DNA from: Clostridium sp.
GTDB taxonomy: Bacteria; Bacillota; Clostridia; Lachnospirales; Lachnospiraceae
Direction: 5' to 3'
Length of the DNA: 44,540 nucleotides
NCBI GenBank assembly: GCA_023664385.1
Contig: JAMPFU010000024.1
Location: forward strand, 1-44,540
Made by a program: the position numbers and the translations under genes. Under the pieces are notes generated by a model. That model made no database searches. It saw nothing but the letters and a program-made list of their open reading frames with translations, and was not told the DNA's origin. Shown here piece after piece: positions 227 to 13,295 of the stretch; within the stretch, counting starts at the first letter, position 1; the number at the start of each line of letters is the position of its first letter.

Positions 227-667
227 ATGGACAAATGGGTGTTAAGAAACAAAATACGGAATTATGAGGGGATGATAGCAGAAAATAAACAAGAAATTTA
301 TGTATTGGAATGTAAGCTTGAAAAAATTAATGGTGTAAAACCAAAACTTACAGAGATACAGGAGCAAATAAGTGATAATTATATAGCGAAAAGAAATAAA
401 TTTGATGCATATTTGGCAATTGCCAGAGGACGTGCCATAAAGAGCCTTTTATCAAAGGGGTTTGAGATGTATAGCAATACAAATTGTGATACACAAATAA
501 ATCGTTTGGATAATATAATATTTTTTATCAATGAAAATATTAGCAAAATAGAAGAAATGATTGCTGAAAAGAAATGGGAAAATAATCATTATTATTCTGC
601 AATCAAAGATTGTGAGTGGAAAATTGATGAAATAGAGAGAAAGGAAAGGATAAAAGAAAATGTATAA
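227..667 (+). CDS. Coiled-coil protein, DUF5082/YwqH-like LXG-effector partner (tentative)
   Basis: A 146-residue protein, almost entirely helical, with heptad-like charged stretches at about residues 8-55 and 90-146 and no signal peptide or membrane segment. The start has a good AAGGAG site 6 nt upstream. Its length, coiled-coil make-up and position before two short WXG100-sized proteins match the YwqH (DUF5082) member of Bacillus ywqH-ywqI-ywqJ operons, where such proteins accompany LXG toxins exported by the type VII system. Seen: length, composition and gene order. Inferred: the family, because no diagnostic residue is visible. It overlaps the next gene by 8 nt, a sign of translational coupling. 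An unrelated coiled-coil protein remains possible. Confidence 0.55.
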   Translation: MDKWVLRNKIRNYEGMIAENKQEIYVLECKLEKINGVKPKLTEIQEQISDNYIAKRNKFDAYLAIARGRAIKSLLSKGFEMYSNTNCDTQINRLDNIIFFINENISKIEEMIAEKKWENNHYYSAIKDCEWKIDEIERKERIKENV

Positions 668-953
668 TTTAATTATCGATGATGAAGAATTTGAGGGGTT
701 TTCAGAATCAATAGGGTATCTGACAACCTCATTGGAAAACAGATATGCATCAATTGTAAATAAATTGAGGTTACTTTGCACTGAGGGTGTGACGGAGGGC
801 GCTTTTCATGATAATCTTGTAGCATACGTTGAAGCCTTAGATATGATGCAGGGACAGCTACAGTTTGTAACTGAGGAATTACAGAGACTATCAGCAGAGT
901 TTATTGCTAAAATTGATGAAATTGACGGTGCAGTATACGATGAAGAAAGGTAA
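660..953 (+). CDS. Small helical WXG100-size protein, LXG-associated (tentative)
   Basis: A 97-residue acidic protein predicted as two long helices (about residues 12-45 and 52-90) separated by a short turn near CTEGVTEG. That is the hairpin layout and length of WXG100-fold secretion partners, although no W-x-G is present at the turn. The ATG lies inside the last codons of the preceding coiled-coil gene (8-nt overlap), with AAAGGA about 13 nt upstream. LXG-associated small proteins of the DUF5344/DUF3130 kind have this size and sit between a DUF5082-like gene and the toxin gene, which supports the reading but does not prove it. No signal peptide or membrane segment is present. Confidence 0.5.
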   Translation: MYNLIIDDEEFEGFSESIGYLTTSLENRYASIVNKLRLLCTEGVTEGAFHDNLVAYVEALDMMQGQLQFVTEELQRLSAEFIAKIDEIDGAVYDEER

Positions 954-959
954 AAAGGT

Positions 960-1247
960 ATGGGAAATTTAAAGGTAAGCTATGCAGAGATTGACAATGT
1001 TATAAGTGAATTGAGGCTTATAACAAATCACCCGGAGGATATTTATATAACATTAGGGAGATTAAACAACCATTTTTCCACAAGTAATAGTGATATGGCA
1101 AATAAAATGGTGGCGACACTGAGCAGATATAGGGAAGCATATGATTTAATGTTGGATTTATGCAGAAATTCTGTAAATATGCTTACTGCGGCAAAATATT
1201 TATATGAGGATATGGATGTAACGCAGTCGGAAGAAATCGGAAATTAG
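960..1247 (+). CDS. Small helical WXG100-size protein, second paralogue-like partner (tentative)
   Basis: A 95-residue protein, again two helices (about residues 5-45 and 48-85), lacking a signal peptide. It starts 6 nt after the previous stop, with an AAAGG site inside the preceding gene's end. It resembles its neighbour in size and layout but not in obvious sequence, so the two could form a heterodimer like WXG100 pairs. No LXG toxin gene follows: the operon seems to end here and 323 nt of non-coding DNA come next. So either the effector lies upstream of the window or the module has lost it. Function is inferred from context only. Confidence 0.5.
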   Translation: MGNLKVSYAEIDNVISELRLITNHPEDIYITLGRLNNHFSTSNSDMANKMVATLSRYREAYDLMLDLCRNSVNMLTAAKYLYEDMDVTQSEEIGN

Positions 1248-1570
1248 AAAGAATTGCACAACTGAGATTAATAGTTGGTAAGGTGAGGTTATATATAATA
1301 TATGTATTTTATCTTATCCTGCTGCCTGCTGTGACAGCCTTACTTTTTTCCTTTTACGTCATTTAAGATGCTTTTCACGCTGTTTTCCCTTTTTCTAAAA
1401 AAATCCTGCCGATATAAATTTTGGATTTGATAATGCTATTGAAGTATGTCATTTCCAGAAAAAGAATAAGGAGGTGAAAAAATAAGCGCTTGGACCTTTT
1501 AGGGAAGCGGCAAGGCTTTTGAACGACAGAGAAAGCCGAAAAATTGTATAAGTGAAAGGAGCAATATTTT
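1248..1570 (+). other. Intergenic region, no gene seen
   Basis: This 323-nt gap has no convincing ORF. A strong Shine-Dalgarno-like AAGGAGGTG lies near 1470 but no ATG follows at proper distance. A stem of seven pairs (GGCTTTT at 1514-1520 with GAAAGCC at 1531-1537) lies just before the ribosome binding site AAAGGA of the gene starting at 1571 and could affect its translation. GCCGATAT at 1408-1415 equals the sigma-D -10 octamer of Bacillus, but no TAAA lies at the right distance. I could not match the region to a known riboswitch. Confidence 0.4.
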
Positions 1571-2515
1571 ATGGGTGTGATAGGAGTAAACAACATACCA
1601 GAGGAGTTGTACCCAAACATCAAAGGGTATAAAAATATGAAAAGAACCAATCATTATTTTACGGATATGCTTGAGGGCGCATACAACGAAGCATATTATA
1701 AGAGGGCGTCCAAGATAACATCTGCTGATAACGTAAATAAAACGAATGACATAAGTAACGTCAATCAGACAGCAGGAGCAAACGACATACAAGGCTTTGA
1801 TAACTATTTTCCAGGCTATCATGTTATTACAAAGGTAGGAAACTGTGACATTTCAAGTGCAAACTGGCAGAGAAACGATTTCCCATATTGGAACTATTTT
1901 AGGGAAAATACTTCGGCAGACTGCAATAATGATTGGAAACCAAAGGGTGCAAATCCAAGTCAGATGGAGGGCTGGCTGCAAAGGCAGATGGGAACGGTAG
2001 CTTCGGGACAGGTAAGCATTTTGATACCTGATGAACTACAGAAAAAAATGGATGCAGACCCTGCCTATGCTGAGGAGATATATAAAAAGGTGGCAAAGTG
2101 GAAGGAAGATTACGACAGAAGGGATAATGCCCTTGCCGCCTCTTATGGAATGGATGTATTTGAGCATCAGGCAAGCAAAAGCTATGTAATGCAGCTTGAC
2201 GAAAACGGTGACGTTAAAAATGCTACAGTTTGTGGCGGCGGACGCATTACAGGACCGTCAGAGGAGGAGCTTCGGGAAATTGAAGCGGAACAGAAGAAAA
2301 AGCGGGCAAAAAGGCTTCAGTATACGGAGCAGCTTCAGGAAAATGCAATGGAGCGGGCTGACATTATAAAAATGATGCAGCTATATTATTATAAGAGTAT
2401 CTTTTCAAACAGCCTTGGAGGATTTGGCAGTCTCGGAAGCTTTGACGGCTTCGGCTCATTTGGTTCATATGGTGCAGGCTTTTTAAATTCAAGCGGCAGA
2501 TTTGGATTGTTTTAA
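1571..2515 (+). CDS. Unrecognised 314-residue protein with Gly/Phe-rich tail
   Basis: I do not recognise this gene with certainty; it may be one of the DUF6033-like Lachnospiraceae proteins. It has no signal peptide or membrane segment. The N-terminal third is polar and Asn-rich (about residues 50-75). The middle (about 75-215) has the ordered look of a domain, with SILIPDELQKKM, AEEIYKKVAKWKEDYDRRD and a Gly cluster CGGGRITGPS. A Lys/Glu-rich helix follows at about 230-275. The last 35 residues are a low-complexity tail of Gly, Phe and Ser (SLGSFDGFGSFGSYG). The start has AAAGGA 10 nt upstream. The gene at 2533 follows after 17 nt and is probably co-transcribed. Surface or appendage association is possible but unproven. 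Confidence 0.75.
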   Translation: MGVIGVNNIPEELYPNIKGYKNMKRTNHYFTDMLEGAYNEAYYKRASKITSADNVNKTNDISNVNQTAGANDIQGFDNYFPGYHVITKVGNCDISSANWQRNDFPYWNYFRENTSADCNNDWKPKGANPSQMEGWLQRQMGTVASGQVSILIPDELQKKMDADPAYAEEIYKKVAKWKEDYDRRDNALAASYGMDVFEHQASKSYVMQLDENGDVKNATVCGGGRITGPSEEELREIEAEQKKKRAKRLQYTEQLQENAMERADIIKMMQLYYYKSIFSNSLGGFGSLGSFDGFGSFGSYGAGFLNSSGRFGLF

Positions 2516-2532
2516 GAGGAGGCGCATTTTTT

Positions 2533-3183
2533 ATGAATGTAACGTTAAATACATATGCAAATAATGTTTCGGCATATAATATGGAGGAAATGGCGGCAAA
2601 TCAAAAACAGGCGGAGCAGCCGAAAACTGAAAAAACAGAAGATTATACCGTTTTTTCTGATGAAGGGATGAATGCAGTCTTAGAGCAAAAAAATCCGTTT
2701 AGAAAAATGGAGGCGGCTGTATATCATGGTGATGTTGAGGCTTTAAAAAAGGCTGCAAAGGAGTATTGTAAAAACACGCTTCCTGTAAATTGGGACAGGG
2801 TCGTTGACCCTGACAGAAAGATATATGGGGCGGCATATGTTGAGTCGCTGCTTACGCAATATAAGCAGCAGGAGGAAAAGGTAATTAGTTATTACGCAGA
2901 GGCGCATCAGGAAAATCTCACATATGACGACCCATACAAGCATATTTTAATGAAATATGTATTTAAAAATTCGCCTTTTTTCAGGGCAGATATGAGTGCG
3001 ACCGAAAGGCAGAAGGCACTTGAGCAGGAGAGAGCCTTGCTGTGGGGAGGCAGCATAGACATGGCTGACCCATATGCATTAAAAAATCAGGGTGGAGCGA
3101 TAAATATTAAGGAGGCGGATAAAATCGCCCATCAGGCGGCGAGGGATAAAATAGACGAGCTTATAAGAAGGGTGCATATTTGA
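2533..3183 (+). CDS. Unrecognised 216-residue protein, partner of the preceding gene
   Basis: No family is recognised. The protein opens like its neighbour, with an Asn/Tyr-rich segment (MNVTLNTYANNVSAYNMEE), then a Gln/Lys-rich linker and a soluble helical region (about residues 55-216) containing YHGDVEALKKAAKEY and a Trp-containing core WDRVVDPDRKIYG. The end is basic (RDKIDELIRRVHI). It has no signal peptide or membrane segment. The start is set by a GAGGAGGCG site at 2515-2523. The spacing of 17 nt to the upstream gene and a terminator overlapping the stop codon mark 1571-3183 as a two-gene operon. The shared N-terminal character suggests the two products act together, which is inference. 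Confidence 0.75.
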   Translation: MNVTLNTYANNVSAYNMEEMAANQKQAEQPKTEKTEDYTVFSDEGMNAVLEQKNPFRKMEAAVYHGDVEALKKAAKEYCKNTLPVNWDRVVDPDRKIYGAAYVESLLTQYKQQEEKVISYYAEAHQENLTYDDPYKHILMKYVFKNSPFFRADMSATERQKALEQERALLWGGSIDMADPYALKNQGGAINIKEADKIAHQAARDKIDELIRRVHI

Positions 3184-3415: not shown

Positions 3416-4690
3416 ATGAATAATTATAAAAGATATATTATATTTTGGTTAAGCCAAAGCGTTTCCCAGCTAGGCAGTGCAATGACGGCATTTGCCCTTA
3501 TATTGCTTACGTATGAGCAGAAAAACTCTGCAATGGCAGTTTCAATTATGACATTCTGCAATTATGTTCCGTTTATCATTGTGAGCCTGATTGCAGGTTC
3601 GTTTATTGACAGACATAGCAAAAAAGCAATTATGCTTGTTTCTGACAGCATTGCCGCCTTATGCACCCTTGCAGTTCTCATTTTATGGACGACGGGAAGC
3701 ATTAAGCTGTGGAATATTTACGTTGTAAATATCGTGATAGGGTTTATGAATGCATTTCAGCAGCCTGCCTCCGCAGTAGCCGTAGGAAGGATTGTTCCAA
3801 AGGAAAAGCTGTCAAATGTAAGCGGCATGAATTCATTTTCAAGTAATTTAATTACAGTTTTAAGTCCTGTATTATCCGCATTTATTTTTTCTTTTTGCGG
3901 ATTGGGGACGATACTGATGATTGACCTGATAAGCTTTCTGTTTGCGTTTCTTGTGCTTTTGCTGCTTATCCGTATACCTGAGGATAATACTAAGGTTAGT
4001 GATAAATCAATTTTGGATGGCACAAGAGAGGGCTTTCGGTTTCTCAAGGGAGAAAAGGGACTGCTTTACATTATGCTTACAATGGCACTTATCAATTTCT
4101 TTTCAAGGCTTACCTACGAGAATATCCTTTCGCCGATGATTTTATCAAGAAGCGGAGGAAGCAGCAGAACCCTTGGAATTGTAAATGCAGCCATGGGAAT
4201 CGGAGGAATTGCAGGAGGTTTTATCGTATCGCTGAAAAAGGCATCAAAGAAAAACGCAGGGATGATATATATTTCAGCCGCAATTTCCTTTTTGCTTGGC
4301 GATATTATGATGGCTGTCGGAAGAAACGCTTTCATGTGGTCTGCAGCAGGGATTGCGGCAAGCCTGCCGATACCGTTTATTATGGCGGGACAGAATGTGA
4401 TTATGTACAGTAAAATTCCTGATGAAATGCAGGGGAGAGTGTTTGCAGTGCGAAATGCAATACAGTTTGGCACAATTCCGTTTGCCATTCTGCTTGGCGG
4501 TTTCCTTGCAGATCATGTTTTCGAGCCGCTTATGAGGTCAGACCACGCCGTTGCAGATTGTCTGAGGGTTATTGTTGGACACGGCAAGGGAAGCGGTATG
4601 GCAGTTATGTTTTTAATGACAGGAATAACAGGGTTTCTTATCAGTATTTTTTCTTATAGAAAACGTGAAATAAGGGAGCTTGATATGTAG
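3416..4690 (+). CDS. MFS exporter, Mef/macrolide-efflux-like (MFS_3 type)
   Basis: A 424-residue integral membrane protein with about 12 hydrophobic segments, the size of the Mef/TIGR00900-type drug:H+ antiporters. The loop after segment 2 carries GSFIDRHSKKAIML, a version of the MFS motif A (GxxxDRxxRK). The opening RYIIFWLSQSVSQLGSAM also resembles Mef proteins, where WxSQ-x-x-S-x-LGS is usual. The substrate cannot be read from sequence; macrolides or other lipophilic drugs are an inference from family. The start ATG has GAGGAG 9 nt upstream. The leader ORF and nested inverted repeats in front suggest inducible expression. A palindromic repeat begins 6 nt after the stop and may end transcription. 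Confidence 0.85.
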   Translation: MNNYKRYIIFWLSQSVSQLGSAMTAFALILLTYEQKNSAMAVSIMTFCNYVPFIIVSLIAGSFIDRHSKKAIMLVSDSIAALCTLAVLILWTTGSIKLWNIYVVNIVIGFMNAFQQPASAVAVGRIVPKEKLSNVSGMNSFSSNLITVLSPVLSAFIFSFCGLGTILMIDLISFLFAFLVLLLLIRIPEDNTKVSDKSILDGTREGFRFLKGEKGLLYIMLTMALINFFSRLTYENILSPMILSRSGGSSRTLGIVNAAMGIGGIAGGFIVSLKKASKKNAGMIYISAAISFLLGDIMMAVGRNAFMWSAAGIAASLPIPFIMAGQNVIMYSKIPDEMQGRVFAVRNAIQFGTIPFAILLGGFLADHVFEPLMRSDHAVADCLRVIVGHGKGSGMAVMFLMTGITGFLISIFSYRKREIRELDM

Positions 4691-4696
4691 CCTATC

Positions 4697-4836
4697 AATT
4701 GTTGGTTTCGGGTATTTCTATACTTTATAAGAAAGTTCTCCGAACTTCCTTATAAGGCAGGATTAAAAATCCTGCTAGGATTCGAACTACAGCGTCGGAG
4801 ACGCTTTGTTCTATAAGAATATCCGAAACCACAATT
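4697..4836. repeat. Palindromic repeat P, long copy with three internal hairpins
   Basis: Outer arms AATTGTTGGTTTCGGGTATT (from 4697) and the matching right arm ending at 4836 form an imperfect stem. The same arms occur in the short copy at 7819-7874, so this is a dispersed family and not just a terminator. Between the arms lie three further hairpins: 4726-4738 with 4742-4754 (one mismatch), GCAGGATT with AATCCTGC (4757-4775, perfect), and AGCGTC with GACGCT (4791-4805, perfect). Read as RNA, this gives a multi-branched cloverleaf-like shape. The right arm directly adjoins a half copy of the 93-bp element R. No coding capacity is seen. Confidence 0.7.
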
Positions 4837-4882
4837 ATTTAGGGAATTTCTTGGATATGACGGAATATTTGAAAGGCAAATC
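4833..4882 (+). repeat. Upstream element R, half copy (R1)
   Basis: These 50 bp align without gaps to the 3' part of the copies at 5731-5823 and 7159-7251; 45 of 50 positions equal the 5731 copy. The 5' half is absent and the palindromic repeat P sits in its place, so P probably inserted into or recombined with a full R. The gene at 4924 starts 41 nt after the element. Confidence 0.7.
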
Positions 4883-4923
4883 AGGAGTTATAGGTAAATG
4901 ATATAGCTTTGCAGAGGTACTAT

Positions 4924-5601
4924 ATGAATATAAACTATGAAAAAAAACTGCATGAAAAAGTGAATCGCTTTAAGTGCAGAGCCGATAAAGATTATCCCAA
5001 TTGGAGCGAAAGCAATGATAATGGAGAGTGGGAAATCGGTCTTTTTGAGTTTGACGAAATGTGCAGTGTTATTTTTGATATAATCGAAAGTGCATCATAT
5101 GCAGAAGCCACGGAACAAATGCTTGATGATATGTTGTTTGGGATTGCGAGAGATAATGAATGTTCCCGTATCGTGAATAGGATGATTGATTATTCCGGGT
5201 GGTACTCTGTACTATGCAGGAAGTCTTTATCAACGGATTATAGGAATGCGAAATGGCAATTCGCCGAGAGCTTGAAGGATTATAAAGGACAAGATAATCT
5301 TCGTGAGCTGATTTATGAATTTTTGAAAATTGATGACGAATATACAGAAAGGCTTGCCCTAATGTCACTGGCATATATTTATCCGGAACAAGCTGAAAAA
5401 TACGCAATTGATTTTTGGCATAGAGATAAATATAAGGATGATGATTACGGGAATGAATATCAGAAAATAATGGTGCTTCATGTACTGCATACGATTCGTT
5501 CTGATAAGCTGAATGAGTATTTAGATTTGGCTGATCAGTCAAAGTACCATTATTTGAAAGAAAATTCCAAGAGACTTCGGGAAGAATTGTTAGAAGGTTA
5601 A
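4924..5601 (+). CDS. HEAT-repeat-like soluble protein, function unknown
   Basis: A 225-residue acidic protein without signal or membrane segments. A TTG start 15 nt upstream is possible, but the ATG at 4924 has GAGG 6 nt before it and fits better. The C-terminal part (about residues 110-225) shows successive helical pairs such as LRELIYEFLKIDDEY, ERLALMSLAYIYPEQAEKYA and YQKIMVLHVLHTI, the pattern of HEAT-like repeats that act as protein-binding scaffolds. The N-terminal part contains aromatic and acidic residues (YPNWSES). No partner gene is evident. It is preceded by the half element R1 and followed by element R2, so it appears to be one member of the repeat-linked accessory series. Confidence 0.7.
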   Translation: MNINYEKKLHEKVNRFKCRADKDYPNWSESNDNGEWEIGLFEFDEMCSVIFDIIESASYAEATEQMLDDMLFGIARDNECSRIVNRMIDYSGWYSVLCRKSLSTDYRNAKWQFAESLKDYKGQDNLRELIYEFLKIDDEYTERLALMSLAYIYPEQAEKYAIDFWHRDKYKDDDYGNEYQKIMVLHVLHTIRSDKLNEYLDLADQSKYHYLKENSKRLREELLEG

Positions 5602-5640
5602 TAGGTAATAAATCCAACCTTGAATATATAATGAAAATTT

Positions 5641-5681
5641 ACATTTCGCGAAAATAAAAATATTCATTTTTTGCGAAATGT
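5641..5681. repeat. 14-bp inverted repeat (ACATTTCGC core)
   Basis: The arm at 5641-5654 pairs with 5668-5681 over 14 bp with one G-U, around a 13-nt A/T-rich loop. The left arm also contains the self-palindrome TTTCGCGAAA. No U-tract follows on the + strand, so it is not a clear terminator. It could be an operator or a mobile-element scar. Confidence 0.45.
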
Positions 5682-5730
5682 GCATTGTAATAATTTTGAG
5701 ATGAGTTAGTTTGAAAATAAAAGAAAGAAC

Positions 5731-5823
5731 ATAGAAATAGAGAGTGCAATTTTCATAAATATATTGGCAGAAAATTATTTAGGGAATGTCTTGGATATGA
5801 CAGGACATTTGAAAGGTAAATCG
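5731..5823 (+). repeat. Upstream element R, full copy (R2)
   Basis: A 93-bp stretch that matches 7159-7251 without gaps at 86 of 93 positions. It holds a short inverted repeat AATGTC/GACATT around the core TTGGATATGACAG and ends 21 nt before the ATG of the acetyltransferase at 5844, just upstream of its GAGG site. I see no clear promoter inside it. The conservation exceeds what unrelated flanking DNA would show, so it is either a recent duplication, a recombination site or a shared regulatory leader. Confidence 0.8.
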
Positions 5824-5843
5824 AAGTTTGTGAGGATATAAAA

Positions 5844-6338
5844 ATGGAGTATAGAAAATTATCCGTGAATGAAGCGGAACAATTTTGGAGTTTGATGAAT
5901 CAATTGGATTATGAAACAAAGTATATGTTATACGAACCGGGTGAGAGGACAAAGAATCTTTCTAGAACTGAGTCTTTAATACGAGATTCCGTGGAAGGAC
6001 AAGATTTCCTTCTCGTTGCCGAAACAGATAATAAACTTATAGGATACATATCGGCACAAAAAGGCAGATTGAATCGTATCGCTCATTCTGCATATATAGT
6101 TGTTGGTATTTTAACGGATTATCGTGGCAAAGGAATTGGAACAGAGTTTTTTAAAAGATTGAATGTTTGGGCTGAAGAAAATAAAGTTGTTCGCTTAGAG
6201 TTGACTGTAATTTGTGAGAATGAAACTGCAAAACACCTGTACACAAATAATGGCTTCGAGATAGAGGGTATAAAACGAAAATCGGTTTGTGTAGATGGAA
6301 AGTATTTGGATGAATACTATATGGCAAGGGTAAGATAA
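5844..6338 (+). CDS. GNAT-family N-acetyltransferase
   Basis: A 164-residue protein, the usual length for a single GNAT domain. The acetyl-CoA-binding motif A is visible as YRGKGIGTEFFKRL (R-x-x-G-x-G type), preceded by the strand SAYIVVGILTD. Motif B follows as LELTVICENETAKHLYTNN and GFEIEG, typical of RimI/RimJ-like enzymes that modify protein N termini or small amines. The acceptor substrate cannot be told. The start has GTGAGG 8 nt upstream. It sits directly behind element R2 and 264 nt before the toxin-antitoxin pair, which has its own promoter. The second GNAT gene at 7274 is not a close copy of this one. Confidence 0.88.
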   Translation: MEYRKLSVNEAEQFWSLMNQLDYETKYMLYEPGERTKNLSRTESLIRDSVEGQDFLLVAETDNKLIGYISAQKGRLNRIAHSAYIVVGILTDYRGKGIGTEFFKRLNVWAEENKVVRLELTVICENETAKHLYTNNGFEIEGIKRKSVCVDGKYLDEYYMARVR

Positions 6339-6502
6339 ATTCCAATTATGGGAGCGATAAATTCCGGTTTATTTGTTAACTATCTTAGCTTTTCGCTGCT
6401 TTCAAAACTTTGTGGTATGTCGAACCTCAAAATATGTACCCTTTTCCTTTGTTTTTGCCCTTATGGGTGTTTTACAGGGAAAGTATTGTTTTTATATGTT
6501 TG

Positions 6503-6521
6503 TACAATGCAAAACATTGTA
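6503..6521. promoter_or_regulatory. Inverted repeat upstream of the toxin-antitoxin promoter
   Basis: TACAATG (6503-6509) and CATTGTA (6515-6521) form a perfect 7-bp inverted repeat with a 5-nt spacer, 20 nt before the -35 box of the antitoxin promoter. It may be a binding site for the antitoxin, though such operators usually overlap the promoter. Confidence 0.35.
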
Positions 6522-6541
6522 ACACAAAAACACTCATTTTA

Positions 6542-6570
6542 TTGACAACGCTTGCATTCGCACATATAAT
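6542..6570 (+). promoter_or_regulatory. Consensus promoter of the RelB/YafQ-like operon
   Basis: TTGACA at 6542-6547 and TATAAT at 6565-6570 are separated by 17 nt, a perfect sigma-A consensus. Transcription would start near 6577, giving a 5' leader of about 26 nt with the AGGAG site at 6588-6592. So strong a promoter implies tight repression by the antitoxin complex. Confidence 0.85.
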
Positions 6571-6602
6571 AAAATCAACATTAAACGAGGAGTGATACTT
6601 AT

Positions 6603-6884
6603 ATGGCAACTACAAATATTAATGTACGTGTAGATTCTGCATTAAAGCAGGAAGCGGAAGCACTTTTTGGTGACCTTGGATTAAATATGTCTTCTGCAAT
6701 TAATATGTTCCTGCACTCAGCGGTCAATTACAATGGCATTCCATTTGAAGTAAAACGTCCGATGCCCAATGCAGAAACAAGAGCCGCAATGGACGAATAT
6801 AAGGAAATGCAAAAAAATCCGGATAAATACAAGCGTTATAAATCCTTTGACGAAATGTTAGATGAGGTACTTGCCGATGCTTAA
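6603..6884 (+). CDS. RelB/DinJ-family antitoxin
   Basis: A 93-residue protein of the RelB/DinJ family. The N-terminal ribbon-helix-helix is visible as TNINVRVDSALKQEAEALF (DNA-binding strand and helix 1) and LGLNMSSAINMFLHSAV (helix 2, with the usual NMSSAINMFL). The C-terminal part from about residue 50, starting at GIPFEVKRP and with an acidic end FDEMLDEVL, is the toxin-wrapping region. It binds and neutralises the product of the overlapping gene and would repress its own consensus promoter. The start has CGAGGAG 10 nt upstream. The stop overlaps the toxin start by 8 nt. This is a complete type II pair with no sign of decay. Confidence 0.92.
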   Translation: MATTNINVRVDSALKQEAEALFGDLGLNMSSAINMFLHSAVNYNGIPFEVKRPMPNAETRAAMDEYKEMQKNPDKYKRYKSFDEMLDEVLADA

Positions 6885-7149
6885 AATAGTTCCGTCTAAT
6901 CAGTTTAAAAAGGATTTAAAGCTTGCAAAAAAACGTGGTTGCAAAATAGAGCATTTACGGGACGTTGTTAATGCATTAGCAAATGGGCGAAAGTTGGATG
7001 AAAAGTACCATGACCATGGATTAGCAGGTAATTACAATGGATTTCGGGAGTGTCATGTTGAACCGGATTGGCTTCTGATTTATCGCATCAATCAAGATGC
7101 CCTTGAATTATTTTTATTCCGTACTGGGACACATTCTGATTTATTTTAA
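6877..7149 (+). CDS. YafQ/RelE-family mRNA interferase toxin
   Basis: A 90-residue RelE-superfamily endoribonuclease of the YafQ branch, which cuts mRNA in the ribosomal A site. Visible signatures are the opening KIVPSNQFKKDLKLAKKRG, the central HDHGLAGNYNGFRECHVEPD and the end LLIYRINQDALELFLFRTG followed by THSDLF. The His residues near the middle (YHDHGLAGNY) and the terminal H-x-x-x-F match YafQ (His50, His63, His87, Phe91 in the E. coli enzyme). The ATG at 6877 is chosen over an upstream one at 6862 because it overlaps the antitoxin stop in the ATGCTTAA arrangement common in such operons, giving coupled translation. It appears intact. Confidence 0.9.
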   Translation: MLKIVPSNQFKKDLKLAKKRGCKIEHLRDVVNALANGRKLDEKYHDHGLAGNYNGFRECHVEPDWLLIYRINQDALELFLFRTGTHSDLF

Positions 7150-7158
7150 ATGAATTTT

Positions 7159-7251
7159 ATAGAAACCGAGAGTACAATTTTCACAAATATATTGGCAGAA
7201 AATGATTTAGGGAATGTCTTGGATAAGACAGAACATTTGAAAGGTAAATCG
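7159..7251 (+). repeat. Upstream element R, full copy (R3)
   Basis: This 93-bp copy of element R has 7 differences from 5731-5823 and no gaps. It starts 10 nt after the toxin stop and ends 23 nt before the ATG of the second acetyltransferase. The inverted repeat inside it is weaker (AATGT/ACATT) because one arm base has changed. Confidence 0.8.
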
Positions 7252-7273
7252 GTGTTTACGGGGGATAATAATT

Positions 7274-7732
7274 ATGGAGTTAGTAAAATTTCAAGAGAAA
7301 TATAGACAAGCGTTTATTGATTTTAATACGGATTGGATTGTTTCTAATTTTGGATTTCTTGAGGAAAACGATAAGGAAACATTTGAGAAAATCGATGAAG
7401 AAATAAAAAATGGAGCAATGATCTTCTTTGCCGTTGAGGATGAAATTCCGTTAGCCTGCTGTATGTCTATGCCGATGAAAGATACGACATGGGAAATCTG
7501 TAAATTAGGTTCAAATAAGAATGTACAACATAAAGGAGCTGGCAGCTTGGTGTTTCAGGCATCAATGGAATGGGCATTGGAGCATGGTGCAAAACGTTTG
7601 TTTATACTTTCAAACAGTAAATTAAAACCTGCATTACATATTTATAAGAAAAACGGATTTAAAGAGATAAAGCTTGATGATTATGAATATGTGCGGGGTG
7701 ATATAGCGTTTGAGTATATTTCAGAAGAATGA
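7274..7732 (+). CDS. GNAT-family N-acetyltransferase
   Basis: A 152-residue single-domain GNAT enzyme. Motif A is seen as NKNVQHKGAGSLVFQASMEW (Q-x-x-G-x-G), after the strand TTWEICKLGSN. Motif B is RLFILSNSKLKPALHIYKKN with the following GFKEI, the shape of YjgM/RimI-like acetyltransferases. The acceptor is unknown. The start follows GGGGGAT by 7 nt. It lies directly behind element R3, as the other GNAT gene lies behind R2, but the two proteins differ in length and in most of their sequence, so the shared element is not explained by a recent duplication of the whole gene. Confidence 0.88.
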   Translation: MELVKFQEKYRQAFIDFNTDWIVSNFGFLEENDKETFEKIDEEIKNGAMIFFAVEDEIPLACCMSMPMKDTTWEICKLGSNKNVQHKGAGSLVFQASMEWALEHGAKRLFILSNSKLKPALHIYKKNGFKEIKLDDYEYVRGDIAFEYISEE

Positions 7733-7783
7733 CAAAAACCAGTTTCATGAAATGGATAAAAGGCAAATAGCAGGAGAATATAT

Positions 7784-7879
7784 ATGCCAATGAATGTAGA
7801 TGAGATGAAATCCTTTTTAATTGTCGGTTTCGGCTATTCTTATTTTTACATAAGAATATCTGAAACCGACAATTTTTAA
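7784..7879 (+). pseudogene. Gene start interrupted by palindromic repeat P
   Basis: A good GCAGGAGAA site and ATG at 7784 open a 31-codon frame that begins MPMNVDEMKSF and then reads through the palindromic repeat (7819-7874) to a TAA. A short stretch before it (about 7757-7776, AAAGGCAAATAGCAGGAG) resembles the 3' end of element R1. The likely reading is a fourth accessory gene whose first 11-12 codons survive and whose body was cut by the repeat. The rest cannot be identified. Confidence 0.45.
7819..7874. repeat. Palindromic repeat P, short copy
   Basis: The 25-nt arms at 7819-7843 and 7850-7874 pair with two mismatches around a 6-nt loop. Both arms share AATTGT, GGTTTCGG and TATTCTTAT with the arms of the copy at 4697-4836, but the three internal hairpins are missing. 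A T-rich stretch follows (ATTTTTAAT), so the element could also end transcription of the upstream acetyltransferase gene. Confidence 0.7.
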
Positions 7880-7934
7880 TTATATGGGACTGTCGCCCAA
7901 AGTGCCAACATTGTGGCAGTATAAGGGGTTTTGA

Positions 7935-8036
7935 AGGTACTTTGTTCTTGTGGATAACGGCGTCAACTTATGGTATAGCGTATTCAACGGCAGGTATATT
8001 GTAAATCCTGTCAGGTTAATTTATCATAATGCTTAG
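7935..8036 (+). pseudogene. Remnant of an unknown gene (C-terminal 33 codons)
   Basis: After a TGA at 7932-7934 an open frame of 33 codons has protein-like composition (YFVLVDNGVNLWYSVF, NPVRLIYHNA) but no start codon or ribosome site, and stops upstream in the same frame. It looks like the decayed end of a gene, perhaps the one broken at 7784. The rest of 7880-8152 contains only short traces and no intact ORF. Confidence 0.35.
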
Positions 8037-8152
8037 AAATTTAAAAACACGATACCAGTCTGTTTGCTGAAAGAAACTTCATGCTTATCGGCAGTGCATA
8101 AGGGAGCGTGTTAAAGAATGGACTGACGCTAAAAAGCTGGGAGGCAAAGAAT

Positions 8153-8920
8153 ATGAATCAGGAAAAAATCGGAAAGCATATTGCAGATATGCGGAAAAAA
8201 CAAAATCTAACGCAAAAACAGATGGCAGACTTACTTTGTGTGACGGATAAGGCTGTGTCGAAATGGGAATGTGGCAAATCAATGCCTGAAATTTCTAAAA
8301 TTGAGCCCTTGTGTAATGTGCTTAACATAAGCGTGAATGAATTACTTTCGGGAGAGTGTATCGAAGAACCCCTATACTCCAAAAAAGCAGAGGAAAATAT
8401 GCTGCAATTGATTTCTGAATGTGAAGATAATGAGAAAACAGGCGGTGCATCTATTGTAGTTGTAATGTCAATGTTAGCGGTATTGTTTTGTATTGGATAT
8501 ACCATTGCAATTAATATAGGATTTGAGGATGGGTATAAATGGATTGATGTATCTTCCGTTATGACTTTAATTTTTGTAACACTGATATACCTGTTAAGTA
8601 CAAGAACGATGAAACCGTTTTTTAGGTCATTTGTGATAGGCAGTAAAAAACGGTCATATTTGAAAGAGGAAATTTATTCTTCCATGATTTCAGTAAAGCT
8701 AGTCCAAAGGACTATGCTTACAACGGGATTTTTGATTAGCTTATTGAGTTATATATCAACTAATATTATGGTTTCGGATGCTTCATTTGATGGATATATT
8801 GTTTCAAATTTTGCAGTTGCTTCCTTAGGATTTTTATATGGAATCATTGCTTTTTTATTATTGATACCGATAAGGGCAAAATTAGAGCTGTATTTAGGGT
8901 TGGTAATGGGGGAAAAGTGA
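8153..8920 (+). CDS. HTH (XRE) regulator with four membrane segments
   Basis: A 255-residue protein. Residues 4-60 are an XRE-type HTH: IGKHIADMRKKQNLTQKQMA, then VTDKAVSKWECGKSMPEI and LNISVNELLSGE. Four hydrophobic segments follow at about residues 100-120, 135-150, 182-202 and 212-238. Such membrane-anchored HTH regulators commonly sit beside an ABC exporter in Clostridia. The ATG at 8153 follows GGGAGG by 8 nt; a GTG start 45 nt upstream is weaker. The ABC ATPase gene begins 1 nt after its stop, so the two are one operon. A regulator of drug or peptide export is inferred; the signal is unknown. Confidence 0.85.
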   Translation: MNQEKIGKHIADMRKKQNLTQKQMADLLCVTDKAVSKWECGKSMPEISKIEPLCNVLNISVNELLSGECIEEPLYSKKAEENMLQLISECEDNEKTGGASIVVVMSMLAVLFCIGYTIAINIGFEDGYKWIDVSSVMTLIFVTLIYLLSTRTMKPFFRSFVIGSKKRSYLKEEIYSSMISVKLVQRTMLTTGFLISLLSYISTNIMVSDASFDGYIVSNFAVASLGFLYGIIAFLLLIPIRAKLELYLGLVMGEK

Positions 8921-8921
8921 T

Positions 8922-9674
8922 ATGTCGGAATGTATATTTAAGTTAATGAATATAGAGAAAAAATATAAGAGGAAATATGTATTAGATTCAGTATCATTAG
9001 AAATTCATAAAGGAAAAATATATGGGTTGTTGGGAAATAATGGGGCAGGAAAAACAACACTTATGAGAATTATTACAGGTGGGTGCAGACAGGACAAGGG
9101 GCAGATTATTTTATGCAATGGTAATGAAGAAAGCACTGGTGAAAAGGAAATGACAGCCCTTAGAAGTAAAATTGGCAGCTTGATTGAAAAACCAGCATTA
9201 TATAGCCGTATGTCAGCATGGGAGAATTTATACCTTCAAAGTGTGATATGTGGGAAAAGGAATGATAGTTACATAAAAAACTTATTAGAATTAGTTGGAC
9301 TAGGCAGCGTGGGGAAGAAAAAAGTCAAAGATTTCTCATTGGGAATGAAACAAAGGCTTGGCATTGCAAAGGCATTGGTTAATAAACCCGAGATTTTAAT
9401 ATTAGATGAACCGATTAACGGATTAGACCCGATGGGGATGCTTGAGGTCAGAAGATTATTAAAAGAATTAAATGAAAAATACAACATAACGATAATAATT
9501 TCAAGCCATATTTTAAGCGAATTATATCAACTTGCAAATGAGTATATTTTTTTAAAAGACGGAAGGCTTATAGAAACTACAGGTTACGAGGCATTAAGCA
9601 GTAAGATAGAAGAAAAGGGATGCAGCTTAGAAGAATATTTTGTGGAATTGCATAGAGGAGGGTATCATGGTTAA
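8922..9674 (+). CDS. ABC transporter ATP-binding protein (bacitracin/lantibiotic-export-like)
   Basis: A 250-residue ABC ATPase. Walker A is GNNGAGKTT (about residues 38-46), the signature is FSLGMKQRLGIAKAL, and Walker B is ILILDEPINGLDP followed by the switch in ISSHILSEL. The order and the short C-terminal tail match BcrA-like ATPases of peptide-antibiotic resistance exporters. It is preceded by the HTH-membrane regulator (1 nt gap) and overlaps the permease start by 8 nt. The domain looks complete, but its permease is frameshifted, so the exporter may not function. The start has a G-rich site (GGGGGAAAAG) in the end of the previous gene. Confidence 0.9.
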   Translation: MSECIFKLMNIEKKYKRKYVLDSVSLEIHKGKIYGLLGNNGAGKTTLMRIITGGCRQDKGQIILCNGNEESTGEKEMTALRSKIGSLIEKPALYSRMSAWENLYLQSVICGKRNDSYIKNLLELVGLGSVGKKKVKDFSLGMKQRLGIAKALVNKPEILILDEPINGLDPMGMLEVRRLLKELNEKYNITIIISSHILSELYQLANEYIFLKDGRLIETTGYEALSSKIEEKGCSLEEYFVELHRGGYHG

Positions 9675-10277
9675 CCTTATAAAGGCAGAACTTTATAAAT
9701 TGAATAAATCAATTAGTTATAAGGCACTCTTGATAGGTGTATGTATTTATGCATTGACTGATATGTATTCTATGAATGGGGAACTTGAGACAGTAAACGG
9801 ATTTGAAACAGTAATCGATTCCTTTTCGTTTTGGGGAAGATGTTTAATGCTGTGTGGTATATTTGCAGGCGTATTTATTGCAGGTGACTTTCATAACCGG
9901 ATTTTTTATTCAGAGATTGCTGTTGGTAATAGCAGGAGGAAAGTATTGGCTGCGAAATCAATGGTATATTGGCTGGCATGCATCATAATAGAATTATTTT
10001 ACCAAAGCATGGAAATTGTATATATGACTTGTACATATGGATTTGGGTATTCGTTATCAAAAGTGCAATTATTCAGCTTATTAAAGCTGGAGCTTCGTTA
10101 TACCATACTTCCATAAATGAATATGGCGTACCTTCATTAAAATTATTGCCGATGGAAAAGGTTTTTGAAATTATAGAAAATCAACAGTATATCGGTGCTG
10201 TTTTCATTAGTTTATTTACGATGCTGATTACAATAGTTATATCCATGTATCTTTTTAATCGGGCAGAGCTTAAGTAA
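9667..10277 (+). pseudogene. ABC-2 permease, frameshifted and probably internally deleted
   Basis: From ATG 9667 (GGAGG site just upstream) the frame gives MVNLIKAELYKLNKSISYK, a typical ABC-2 permease start, and three membrane segments, then ends at 10116. The continuation lies in another frame up to 10277 and ends LLITIVISMYLFNRAELK, a typical last segment and terminus. The change of frame falls near 10060-10090. The joined product would be about 203 residues against roughly 240-250 for the family, and the region expected to hold segments 4 and 5 is absent, so a deletion that also shifted the frame is likelier than a simple base-call error. The upstream ATPase and regulator remain intact. 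Confidence 0.7.
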
Positions 10278-10410
10278 AGGCAGAACTATGAAAACAAAGG
10301 ACAGGTTCTATCCCACATTCTTCTTGATAAAAGCCCCCTTTTATGGCATAATACTGACATAAAAATTTAATCGGGAGATGCACATCTGGTAATGGGTGGG
10401 CAGTTGGATA

Positions 10411-10439
10411 AAAAATACCATTATTTGGTGTTTTTTATT
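10411..10439 (+). terminator. Intrinsic terminator
   Basis: AAAAATACCA at 10411-10420 pairs with TGGTGTTTTT at 10426-10435 (one G-U) around a 5-nt loop and is followed by further T residues. It separates the broken ABC operon from the beta-glucosidase gene. Confidence 0.65.
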
Positions 10440-10496
10440 TTATGCCGTCAAGCATAGATTGCTGATGTGCTATTTGTTTATACAGGAGGTCAAACG

Positions 10497-13295
10497 ATGA
10501 AATACACATTGGACTGGAATGAATACGAAAATATTGCAAGAAAAGCAGTTGCAGAGGGACTTGTTCTGCTAAAAAATGACAATCACGTGCTGCCATTTAC
10601 AAAGGGAATGGAGATAGCAGTATTCGGACGTATACAGACAAATTATTATAAAAGCGGAACAGGCTCAGGGGGTATGGTAAACGTATCTCATGTGACAAAT
10701 ATCGTAGAAGGTCTTATGGAAAGTAAGGTTGTTACTGTTAATCAAGATCTGCTCAACGCCTATGTGGAGTGGGAAAAGTTAAACCCCTTTGTTGTAGGGC
10801 TTGGCTGGGGCATGGAGCCTTGGTCCCAGGAGGAAATGCCCGTTAGTGACGCCCTTGTGCAAAGCGCCTCTGAAAGCTCGGATGCGGCGCTTGTCATTAT
10901 AGGAAGAACGGCAGGAGAGGATAAGGACAGCACAGATACGGCAGGCTCGTACCGTCTTACCGATAATGAGTACAATATGATGAAGCTTGTAAGAAGTAAA
11001 TTCTCAAAAATGGTTGTGCTCCTAAATGTAGGCTGTGTCATGGACATGAATTTTGTTGACGACATAAAGCCTGACGCTGTTTTATATGGCTGGCAGGGCG
11101 GCATGGTTGGTGGACATGGAACGGCAGATGTGCTGACAGGTAAGGTATGCCCATCAGGAAGGCTTACGGACACCATTGCATATGACATTAAGGACTACTA
11201 TGCAGATAAGAATTTTGGAGATCCCGTTGAAAACTGTTACACGGATGATATTTATGTGGGCTACAGATATTTTGAAACCTTTGCGCCTGACAGGGTAAAA
11301 TATCCGTTTGGCTATGGACTTTCCTACACGGAATTTAACATGGAGGCAGAGGGCTTTACCTGCGATAAGGAAAACAGGAAAATACACGCAAAAATTAAGG
11401 TTACAAACACAGGTAAATGTGCAGGAAAGCAGGTTGTACAGCTTTATGCTTCGGCGCCGCAGGGGAAGCTTGGAAAGCCTGCAAGGGTGCTTGCTGCCTT
11501 TGGAAAGACAAGAACGCTGAATGTAGGCGAAACGGAAGCTGTAACGCTTGAAGCTGATTTTTATGATTTCTGCTCCTATGATGACAGCGGCATTGTGAGC
11601 CCGTACTGCTTTTTGCTTGAGGAGGGTGACTACAGCTTTTACTATGGAAATGATGTAAAGGACGTAACGCTTATAGAAACAGTAAGACTTGACCTGACGG
11701 TTTTAAATAGATGTTCACAGGCACTTGCGCCTTACAAAAAACTTAAAAGGATAAAGCCTGTTGAAAATACAGGTCAGGAAGATGCGGATAGCTCTTACAT
11801 AATAGCCGAGGAGAATGTACCGCTTGCTGTTTTAACTCAGGAGGAGAAAAGCCTTTTAAATCTGCCTGAGGACATTCCGTATACAGGACATAAGGGCATT
11901 ATGCTTGCCGACGTGCTGCGGGAAGAAGCTGACAATGAAGCATATACTGAGAAGATGCGGGAATTTATTGCACAGCTTTCCGACGAGGCGCTTGCCTCCA
12001 TAATACGCGGCGAGGGAATGGGAAGTTCCCTTGTGACACCGGGAACTGCTGCGGCATTTGGAGGCGTTTCAAAGGCATTACGGGAGCTTGGCATACCGGT
12101 TGCCTGCTGTGATGACGGACCATCCGGACTTCGTTTTGATTGTGGTGCAAAGGCTTTCAGCCTGCCAAATGGAACGCTCCTCGGCTGTACATTTAATGAG
12201 GAATTAAATTGTGAGCTGTTTGAATTTCTTGGGCTTGAGATGATTTCCAACAAGGTTGAAAATGTATTGGGACCGGGAATGAATATTCACAGACACCCGC
12301 TGAACGGACGGAATTTTGAGTATTTTTCAGAGGACCCGCTTGTAACGGGAAGAATGGCTGCCGCACAGCTTAAAGGCTTGAAGCACTATGGACTTAGTGG
12401 AACGGTTAAGCATTTTTGTGCCAATAATCAGGAGTTTAGAAGAAGGCATACAAATACCGTCGTGTCCGAGCGTGCGCTTAGGGAAATTTATCTTAGGGGC
12501 TTTGAAATTGTCGTAAGAAGTGGATATTGCGACAGCATAATGACAACCTACGGTAAGCTGAACGGTCGGTATACTGCTAACTTATATGATTTGACAACAA
12601 CCATACTTCGTGGTGAGTGGGGCTTTAGGGGGATTGTCATGACCGACTGGTGGGCTGCCATAACCTCACGTCCTGACGGTGGACAAAAAACAACTGATTT
12701 TGACCAGATGACGCGTGCGCAAAATGATATTTACATGGTATGTCCTGACGGAGAGACAAATGCTTCGGGTGATAATACCCTTGAGGCGCTTGCCACAGGG
12801 ACTGTTACAAGAGGCGAGCTTCAACGGAATGCCATGAATATATGCGATTATGTCATGCATACCGAGGCGATGAAAAGGCTGATGGGAACCGGCACGGAGG
12901 TTGTAATCATAAATCGTCCTGAGGATAAGGATGATTTTGATATGACGGATGTTGAGTATCGTATCTTGGACAAGGAGATTACCATTTCCTTGGAGGATGA
13001 ACCGTCTGAACTGGGTAAAAATTACGTTTTTGCATTTGATGCAAAGACCTTTGGAAAATACAGAGTGATACTTAGCGGAAGCTCTACATTAAGCGAGCTT
13101 GCACAGATGACGTGTACGCTGTTTATCAACGGCTTTCCAATCAGTACAATGACATTTCATGGCACGAATGGGGAGATTGATACAATATCAAGGGAAATTA
13201 AGATTGGACAGCGTTTTACGATACTGCGGCTGTATGTGGGGGCAGCAGGACTTACGCTGAAGGATATTAAATTTATACTGAAGGATAACGTTTAG
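10497..13295 (+). CDS. Glycoside hydrolase family 3 beta-glucosidase, circularly permuted
   Basis: A 932-residue intracellular enzyme (no signal peptide) predicted to remove terminal beta-linked glucose from oligosaccharides. The domain order is reversed. Residues 1 to about 280 are the GH3 C-terminal domain (LVLLKNDNHVLPF, AGEDKDSTD, YPFGYGLSYTEF); about 290-385 is a fibronectin-III-like domain (VTNTGKCAGKQVVQLY); about 480-780 is the GH3 TIM barrel (DDGPSGLRF, NIHRHPLNGRNFEYFSEDP, KHFCANNQE). The nucleophile is Asp717 in VMTDWW. A C-terminal domain of about 120 residues follows. The same permutation is known in beta-glucosidases of Butyrivibrio and Ruminococcus albus. The ATG at 10497 has AGGAGGT 6 nt upstream. 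Confidence 0.92.
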   Translation: MKYTLDWNEYENIARKAVAEGLVLLKNDNHVLPFTKGMEIAVFGRIQTNYYKSGTGSGGMVNVSHVTNIVEGLMESKVVTVNQDLLNAYVEWEKLNPFVVGLGWGMEPWSQEEMPVSDALVQSASESSDAALVIIGRTAGEDKDSTDTAGSYRLTDNEYNMMKLVRSKFSKMVVLLNVGCVMDMNFVDDIKPDAVLYGWQGGMVGGHGTADVLTGKVCPSGRLTDTIAYDIKDYYADKNFGDPVENCYTDDIYVGYRYFETFAPDRVKYPFGYGLSYTEFNMEAEGFTCDKENRKIHAKIKVTNTGKCAGKQVVQLYASAPQGKLGKPARVLAAFGKTRTLNVGETEAVTLEADFYDFCSYDDSGIVSPYCFLLEEGDYSFYYGNDVKDVTLIETVRLDLTVLNRCSQALAPYKKLKRIKPVENTGQEDADSSYIIAEENVPLAVLTQEEKSLLNLPEDIPYTGHKGIMLADVLREEADNEAYTEKMREFIAQLSDEALASIIRGEGMGSSLVTPGTAAAFGGVSKALRELGIPVACCDDGPSGLRFDCGAKAFSLPNGTLLGCTFNEELNCELFEFLGLEMISNKVENVLGPGMNIHRHPLNGRNFEYFSEDPLVTGRMAAAQLKGLKHYGLSGTVKHFCANNQEFRRRHTNTVVSERALREIYLRGFEIVVRSGYCDSIMTTYGKLNGRYTANLYDLTTTILRGEWGFRGIVMTDWWAAITSRPDGGQKTTDFDQMTRAQNDIYMVCPDGETNASGDNTLEALATGTVTRGELQRNAMNICDYVMHTEAMKRLMGTGTEVVIINRPEDKDDFDMTDVEYRILDKEITISLEDEPSELGKNYVFAFDAKTFGKYRVILSGSSTLSELAQMTCTLFINGFPISTMTFHGTNGEIDTISREIKIGQRFTILRLYVGAAGLTLKDIKFILKDNV

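Follow-up and report, generated by a model that had tools for sequence, protein, structure and literature searches.

Integrons are arrays of units that hold a single open reading frame (ORF) with a recombination site at its 3' end, known as the folded attC site, and they are served by the integrase IntI. Another kind of array, described in one article (PMC5704250), arises beside integrative and mobilizable elements (IMEs) and integrative and conjugative elements (ICEs) by accretion of cis-mobilizable elements (CIMEs), that is, by stacking of decayed elements at attachment (att) sites. We analysed a stretch of 44,540 nt from Clostridium sp. (Lachnospiraceae; contig JAMPFU010000024.1, assembly GCA_023664385.1), hereafter the window, in which three copies of a repeated sequence, R1, R2 and R3, precede different accessory genes. 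The region from 4.8 to 7.75 kb is rather probably a decayed array in which units of one gene each meet at attachment cores of an IME-type tyrosine integrase. It comprises the following features, in which R is related to a gene encoding a protein of ~188 amino acids (aa), the 188-aa gene.

4833..4882, forward strand: R1, the last ~15 codons of the 188-aa gene, with CAA at the stop position
4878..4891, forward strand: core at R1 (AAATCAGGAGTTAT), matrix score 11.3
4924..5601, forward strand: cargo 1, 'HEAT-like' protein without Pfam, NCBIfam or PADLOC family
5731..5819, forward strand: R2, the last 28 codons and stop codon (TAA, 5817-5819) of the 188-aa gene
5818..5831, forward strand: core at R2 (AAATCGAAGTTTGT), score 15.1, the top forward-strand position in the window
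5844..6338, forward strand: cargo 2, GNAT1 acetyltransferase
6335..6372, no strand assigned: two cores, one at the GNAT1 stop codon (6335, score 13.6) and one behind it (6357-6359, score 18.0)
6358..6487, no strand assigned: T, putative remnant of an IME-type element (integrase-side end)
6542..6570, forward strand: sigma-70 consensus, 12/12 (TTGACA-17-TATAAT), preceding relB
6603..7149, forward strand: relB-yafQ toxin-antitoxin pair (relB 6603-6884, yafQ 6862-7149)
7129..7144, no strand assigned: core inside the last 20 nt of yafQ, score 10.3
7149..7247, forward strand: R3, the 3' end of the 188-aa gene, starting at the yafQ stop codon, with two in-frame stop codons and its own stop codon (TAA, 7245-7247)
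7246..7259, forward strand: core at R3 (AAATCGGTGTTTAC), score 9.6
7274..7732, forward strand: cargo 3, GNAT2 acetyltransferase
7732..7745, reverse strand: core at the GNAT2 stop codon, score 9.5

Judging from the alignments, R is what decay has left of the 3' end of the 188-aa gene, because the blastn matches of R2 and R3 in the loci of this gene map to its 3' end. In G175, a genome outside the genus, the matching sequence closes an intact 188-aa ORF, and a GNAT gene comes next. The gene is also intact in genome G439 of the same genus and in other Firmicutes, whereas the window holds only decayed tails, of which R2 alone keeps an uninterrupted frame of 28 codons and a stop codon. The preliminary description of this DNA had overlooked this coding origin, the relB-yafQ pair between GNAT1 and R3, and the second shared element T (6358-6487). 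Its alignments hold: R2 (5731-5823) and R3 (7159-7251) are identical at 86 of 93 positions without gaps, and R1 (4833-4882) is identical to R2 at 45 of 50 and, as we add, to R3 at 44 of 50. Leftward, the homology of R3 to the source gene extends 10 nt beyond the limit given there, to 7149, where the yafQ stop codon ends. A start codon follows R1 after 41 nt, R2 after 20 nt and R3 after 22 nt, the first distance assuming that the HEAT-like gene starts at the ATG at 4924. The genes behind them encode a protein of 223-230 aa without Pfam match, GNAT1 and GNAT2. The two GNATs, which had been called dissimilar, are 31% identical across 52 aa; the name 'HEAT-like' proposed for the 223-aa protein finds no support in Pfam.

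The 188-aa family is widespread, with 94 loci confirmed and 80 kept from one collection holding one genome per species. The AlphaFold model is confident (pLDDT 94.6) and predicts a small, mostly helical protein, for which the PDB yielded no Foldseek match at E<=0.001 (best 0.17) and no sequence match, and which has no PADLOC model and no NCBIfam family. The family occurs in seven distant plasmid records; of 25 pattern matches in viral contigs none was confirmed, and none was found in phages. As a separate observation, a divergent branch of the family is followed in eight loci of Clostridia (L063, L070, L072, L073, L075-L077, L079) by similar genes of ~370 aa, beginning with MKKIIINENQ or nearly so, a stable pair unlike the variable neighbours of other 188-aa genes.

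R itself is present beyond the window, in G175 and in genomes of the same genus, so that the confinement to this locus that the preliminary description had named as fatal to its proposal does not apply. Matches at E<=0.001 occur in 7 of 397 genomes of the family sample, long ones only in the own genome and G175 (22-34 nt in the other five); so few long matches rule out a widely dispersed repeat. The own genome (80 contigs) holds no further R2 match better than E 0.04, and none of R was found in plasmid and phage records.

The link to an integrase comes from T. This element matches, at 80% over 99 nt (6390-6487), the T that adjoins an intact integrase gene in G339 and, at 80% over 93 nt (6358-6449), the sibling genome G445. 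The cargo gene immediately before it is GNAT1 in the window and an SdpI-like one in G445. On contig 9 of the latter, a T-like stretch directly follows R and runs into the C-terminal end of a tyrosine integrase gene in reverse orientation. A homologous end (69%, 248 nt) is carried by the Agathobacter rectalis plasmid NZ_CP143948, with a full tyrosine integrase gene, HTH genes and a MobA/MobL gene as neighbours. A query made of T plus the integrase end finds matches in 51 of the 397 family genomes; 33 of the 64 places listed include T, the rest only the integrase part or part of T. On the outer side of T, where unrelated-looking host sequence begins, lies the near-palindromic 14-nt core AAAYYNNRRTTTRT, and the host sequences to its left in 30 loci look unrelated by eye. 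In other Lachnospiraceae genera, this core appears to mark the integrase-side end of a mobile element.

A 14-nt matrix was built from 24 cores, none from the genus of the window. With it, 12 sites of the 44.5-kb window reach or exceed 9.5, and seven of them fall in the 3.2-kb array, none more than ~20 nt from the end of a unit (R1, R2, R3, two at GNAT1, yafQ and GNAT2); the shuffled array gives a mean of 1.1 sites (300 shuffles, maximum 6). Among unit ends of the window, G439, G419 and G445, 13 of 15 (a list without R1 of G445, which scores 9.5) reach 9.5, versus none of 31 mechanically picked control ORF ends in the window outside the array (one at 9.0). The ends of three ExbB-like genes and of the MFS gene score <1, and the high-scoring ends include those of unrelated cargo (GNAT1, GNAT2, the SdpI-like gene, a glyoxalase gene and a 227-aa gene). 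G175 has one core 33 nt ahead of the 188-aa gene, another at the stop codon of this gene and a third 12 nt past the GNAT gene. At locus L028 a core lies at the stop codon of the next gene and none at that of the 188-aa gene (any name for a 285-aa neighbour at this locus is our assumption). Only 14 nt of the R junction, at the 188-aa stop codon and just behind it, resemble a recombination site.

The sibling genomes show what happens around these cores. When R3 was matched with a sample of 37 genomes of the genus, five gave matches: the own genome, G439, G419, G445 (three places) and G452 (33 nt only). Contig C31 of G445 is 97% identical to the window over 2358 nt, which include the MFS gene, a MITE-like element, R1 and the HEAT-like gene. 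Beyond this shared stretch it has an R copy with a core, the SdpI-like gene and a core with T, and the window has R2 with a core, GNAT1 and a core with T. By this alignment, a unit has been exchanged between the siblings within one frame, GNAT1 standing in the window where G445 has the SdpI-like gene. In G451, 60 nt behind the MFS gene take the place of window positions 4691-10476, and the sequence resumes at 10,477; therefore, the absent block exceeds the array.

A second locus lies between an ExbB-like gene and its 219-aa partner, which is called ExbD-like from its position only (Pfam gave a sub-threshold match to another family). In G429, G453 and G451 this interval consists of 42-76 nt without gene. 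In G439 it holds the intact 188-aa gene, then a glyoxalase gene; in G419, relB-yafQ remnants 98% identical to those of the window, then the same R junction and then the 227-aa gene; in G445, a shortened 188-aa gene, behind which the contig ends, and the remnant of an integrase C-terminus. The loci concerned (L190, L192, L191, L204-L206) thus form an insertion slot, geneless in three genomes and with differing contents in three. No such ExbB-like gene was found in the own genome at E<=1e-40. Gain and loss of whole R-gene units among related strains, which the preliminary description had proposed to look for, is therefore seen in G445, in G451 and in the ExbB-like slot. Its idea that R is the fixed boundary of exchangeable units, or a recombination site, gains support from these siblings as far as the exchange is concerned and fails in that R is no element of its own.

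Site-specific recombination at the cores followed by decay would be the simplest account of these data, one that would explain why units end where they do, why different genes share one frame and why T is present. The integrase would recombine AAAYYNNRRTTTRT cores, and each unit, made of a Shine-Dalgarno sequence, a gene and a stop codon in or near the next core, would enter or leave between two cores. R would recur before different cargo where this cargo was inserted at, or carried together with, the end of the 188-aa gene that overlaps the core. The same tail could recur either if the cargo moves together with the 188-aa gene or if the end of this gene is a preferred target, and homologous recombination between tails may contribute. 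Older units would decay; here, the integrase would have been lost, leaving its flank T, together with the 5' parts of the 188-aa genes. The source of R, the core positions, the different units in the same sibling frame and the empty site can be read from the alignments; from them we infer the action of the integrase at the cores, integration and excision, circular units and the direction of each event.

A broader proposal, which we put forward tentatively, is that the array belongs to a gene-cassette system of Gram-positive gut bacteria distinct from integrons, in which an IME-type tyrosine integrase would shuffle single-gene cassettes. The stop codon of each cassette would lie in or near a AAAYYNNRRTTTRT core, boundary repeats (R in this genus, others in G339) would lie between cassettes, and the cargo would consist of small accessory genes (GNAT, glyoxalase, NUDIX, SdpI-like, toxin-antitoxin). 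Across the family, 40 of the 64 listed places with T or integrase were fetched in two sets of 20, and forward ORF stop codons <=25 nt from a core other than the T core were counted, with shifted cores as the null. There were 6 among 77 in the first set (null mean 0.77, maximum 5 in 2000) and 5 among 80 in the second (null mean 0.66, maximum 4). The order core, one ORF, core with T was found in nine of the 40 loci (shifted null mean 1.5, maximum 7 in 1000), the other 31 being without it. The clearest locus, in G339, has five genes, including those of a NUDIX protein, an epimerase and a Cass2/GyrI-like protein; four of the five stop codons lie within 25 nt of a core and the fifth 88 nt before the next one. 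Its spacers hold two kinds of repeats, of ~125 and ~129 bp, 92-93% alike, that begin or end on cores.

Several points weigh against the array of single-gene units and its extension. The repeated tail of the same gene in several units is unexplained by simple core-to-core insertion, and a core lies at the stop codon of only 7 of the 54 188-aa genes examined (4 of these 7 in Bacillales); therefore, the core is not a fixed property of this gene. The matrix provides a semi-independent test, its register having been chosen by eye with a motif near R already noticed and 6 of 30 loci dropped, and the core is short and AT-rich; shuffled arrays held up to 6 sites. The end of the HEAT-like gene has no convincing core in either genome (7.0 in the window, 0.0 in G445), and relB, which lies within the toxin-antitoxin pair and scores -5.1, was left out of the 15 unit ends. 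G339 weighs heavily in the family survey, since without it the first set falls to 3 of 71 (P 0.008). Reverse ORF stop codons lie at cores in 3 of 56 cases, a count without null, and three of the nine single ORFs between cores are on the opposite strand, so that orientation is not strict. Finally, the statement that the window holds no recombinase, made in the preliminary description, stands for the T-associated integrase family: no member is found there, the best tblastn match (E 0.008) being a partial one that falls within the gene at 10467-13295. When the T-integrase query was run at DNA level with a limit of 1e-6, nothing matched in the own genome, for which no protein-level search was made.

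Among the alternatives, CIME accretion survives best, as a possible though somewhat doubtful explanation: decayed IME or ICE units with their attL and attR would have stacked at one site, without dedicated cassettes. It shares the action of an integrase at the cores with the array of single-gene units, and the likelihoods of the two overlap. T and the integrase remnant of the siblings are IME parts, and stacked decayed elements at att sites are described in PMC5704250. However, each unit spans about one gene, whose stop codon falls within a core or close to it; a Shine-Dalgarno-like sequence follows the next core, and no conjugation gene occurs among the genes identified between cores.

It is unlikely that the R copies are simply pseudogene tails of several copies of the 188-aa gene, left over with a ribosome-binding region and with cores that are incidental AT-rich ends. 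R1 and R3 are plainly decayed, and homologous recombination in R would also yield the junction shared with G419, where relB-yafQ is 98% identical, R 88% identical and the right side unrelated. This explanation accounts poorly for the cores at 13 of 15 unit ends, unrelated cargo included, against 0 of 31 controls at 9.5, and for the fact that T, the end of an element on its integrase side, immediately follows cargo genes of two kinds. It is highly improbable that R is a conserved regulatory leader, that is, an RNA element or a device of translational coupling selected before accessory genes, as the preliminary description had also envisaged. R ends 20-41 nt before start codons with a Shine-Dalgarno-like sequence behind it, and R2 folds better than its shuffles (z -3.2), but this fold is not common to R3 (z -0.7) or R1 (z +0.75), there is no credible Rfam match, promoter-like sites are at chance (13 versus a shuffle mean of 14.3) and R is a gene end, so that support for a leader does not go further than the Shine-Dalgarno-like bases that follow the core. 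A local tandem duplication that included R and its gene, to which the same strand and place of the copies would point and which the preliminary description had named as the other way for its idea to fall, is barely credible, a recent event above all, given that R2 resembles R3 (86/95) scarcely more than it resembles the copy on contig 9 of G445 (85/95; R3 with that copy, 83/95), that R1 is orthologous in G445 (47/50) and that the cargo genes are unrelated or only distantly related.

Three further features border the array.

4703..4831, no strand assigned: element resembling a miniature inverted-repeat transposable element (MITE), with imperfect 20-nt terminal inverted repeats (TGGTTTCGG.TATT)
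7757..7793, forward strand: possible vestige of a fourth tail, matching R1 only, with gaps
7819..7874, no strand assigned: 56-bp palindrome related to the ends of the 4703-4831 element

The MITE-like element adjoins the left side of R1 at the point where the gene tail is cut short; it falls within the 2358-nt stretch shared with G445 C31, and a 50-nt piece of it also matches elsewhere in G419. With the palindrome, it flanks the array on both sides by related ends. Two Rfam hits, to microRNA families far under their gathering scores, fell on the palindrome and not on R, and were discarded. The vestige of R that had been suspected at 7757-7776 is weak: a gapped fit to R1 is equalled by 4 of 500 shuffles, and there is no fit to R2 or R3, for which 388 and 358 of 500 shuffles are as good. 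Upstream, positions 227-3183 encode small proteins and two with weak DUF6033/DUF4885 matches, a cluster that we take to be perhaps of type VII secretion type. Downstream, the gene at 10467-13295 is presumably GH3-like and that at 8922 presumably a transporter gene, which was rejected as a synteny anchor on account of its too many paralogues.

In several Bacillales (L144-L155; G397, G400, G403), a hairpin repeat, TTCAACTAACGGGTGCTTTAGTTGAA, lies behind the 188-aa gene and recurs in long arrays. It gave 133 nhmmer hits in 12 stretches, on one strand per stretch and ~0.1-9 kb apart, with at least 40 matches each in G400 and G403, on both strands genome-wide; by inspection, it is without the gene tail. 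These arrays look like another, larger cassette-like array system. Longer strings of its letters gave no match in the literature searched, and matches of 10-mers, judged from their listing, were taken as chance.

The array can be compared with three known systems. Like integrons, it consists of single-gene units mostly in one direction, with a candidate recombination site at the gene 3' end. Indeed, an array of single-ORF units with a 3'-end site is what is found, except for the HEAT unit and one of the five G339 genes. The G339 array moreover adjoins a tyrosine integrase gene, and one of its genes matches PF14526, 'Integron-associated effector binding protein'. Unlike integrons, the integrases of related loci score 64.2 and 54.5 bits against an integron-integrase cut-off of 265, the site appears to be a short near-palindromic core and no known folded attC, and the G339 genes point toward the integrase. 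An IME is recognised by an integrase together with a relaxase or an oriT, and only T was found in the window, relaxase and oriT not having been searched for. The integrase-side end of the A. rectalis element of NZ_CP143948 (tyrosine integrase, MobA/MobL) is homologous to the T-integrase stretch of G445; unlike this element, the window has only the flank, without integrase of that family (again, no relaxase was searched for). As in CIME accretion, stacked and later decayed remnants are bounded by att-like sites. A CIME is flanked by att sites and lacks a recombinase of its own; cores that may act as att sites flank the units of the window, and the T-associated integrase is absent there. Unlike CIMEs, each unit is a single gene that stops within a core or close to it, and by eye no relationship is seen among the host sequences to the left of the core.

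In the literature on Gram-positive integron-like systems and accretion, represented mostly by titles and the beginnings of abstracts, no description of such a system was recognised. If units are moved by this integrase, Lachnospiraceae would collect and exchange single accessory genes outside IntI integrons, with T or the integrase end in 51 of 397 genomes; the system could be found with a short sequence matrix, and the coming and going of small accessory genes, such as those of acetyltransferases, would become testable in this family. Globally, the locus resembles a site-specific accretion array that would work like a gene-cassette system, integron-like in its layout and CIME-like in its history.

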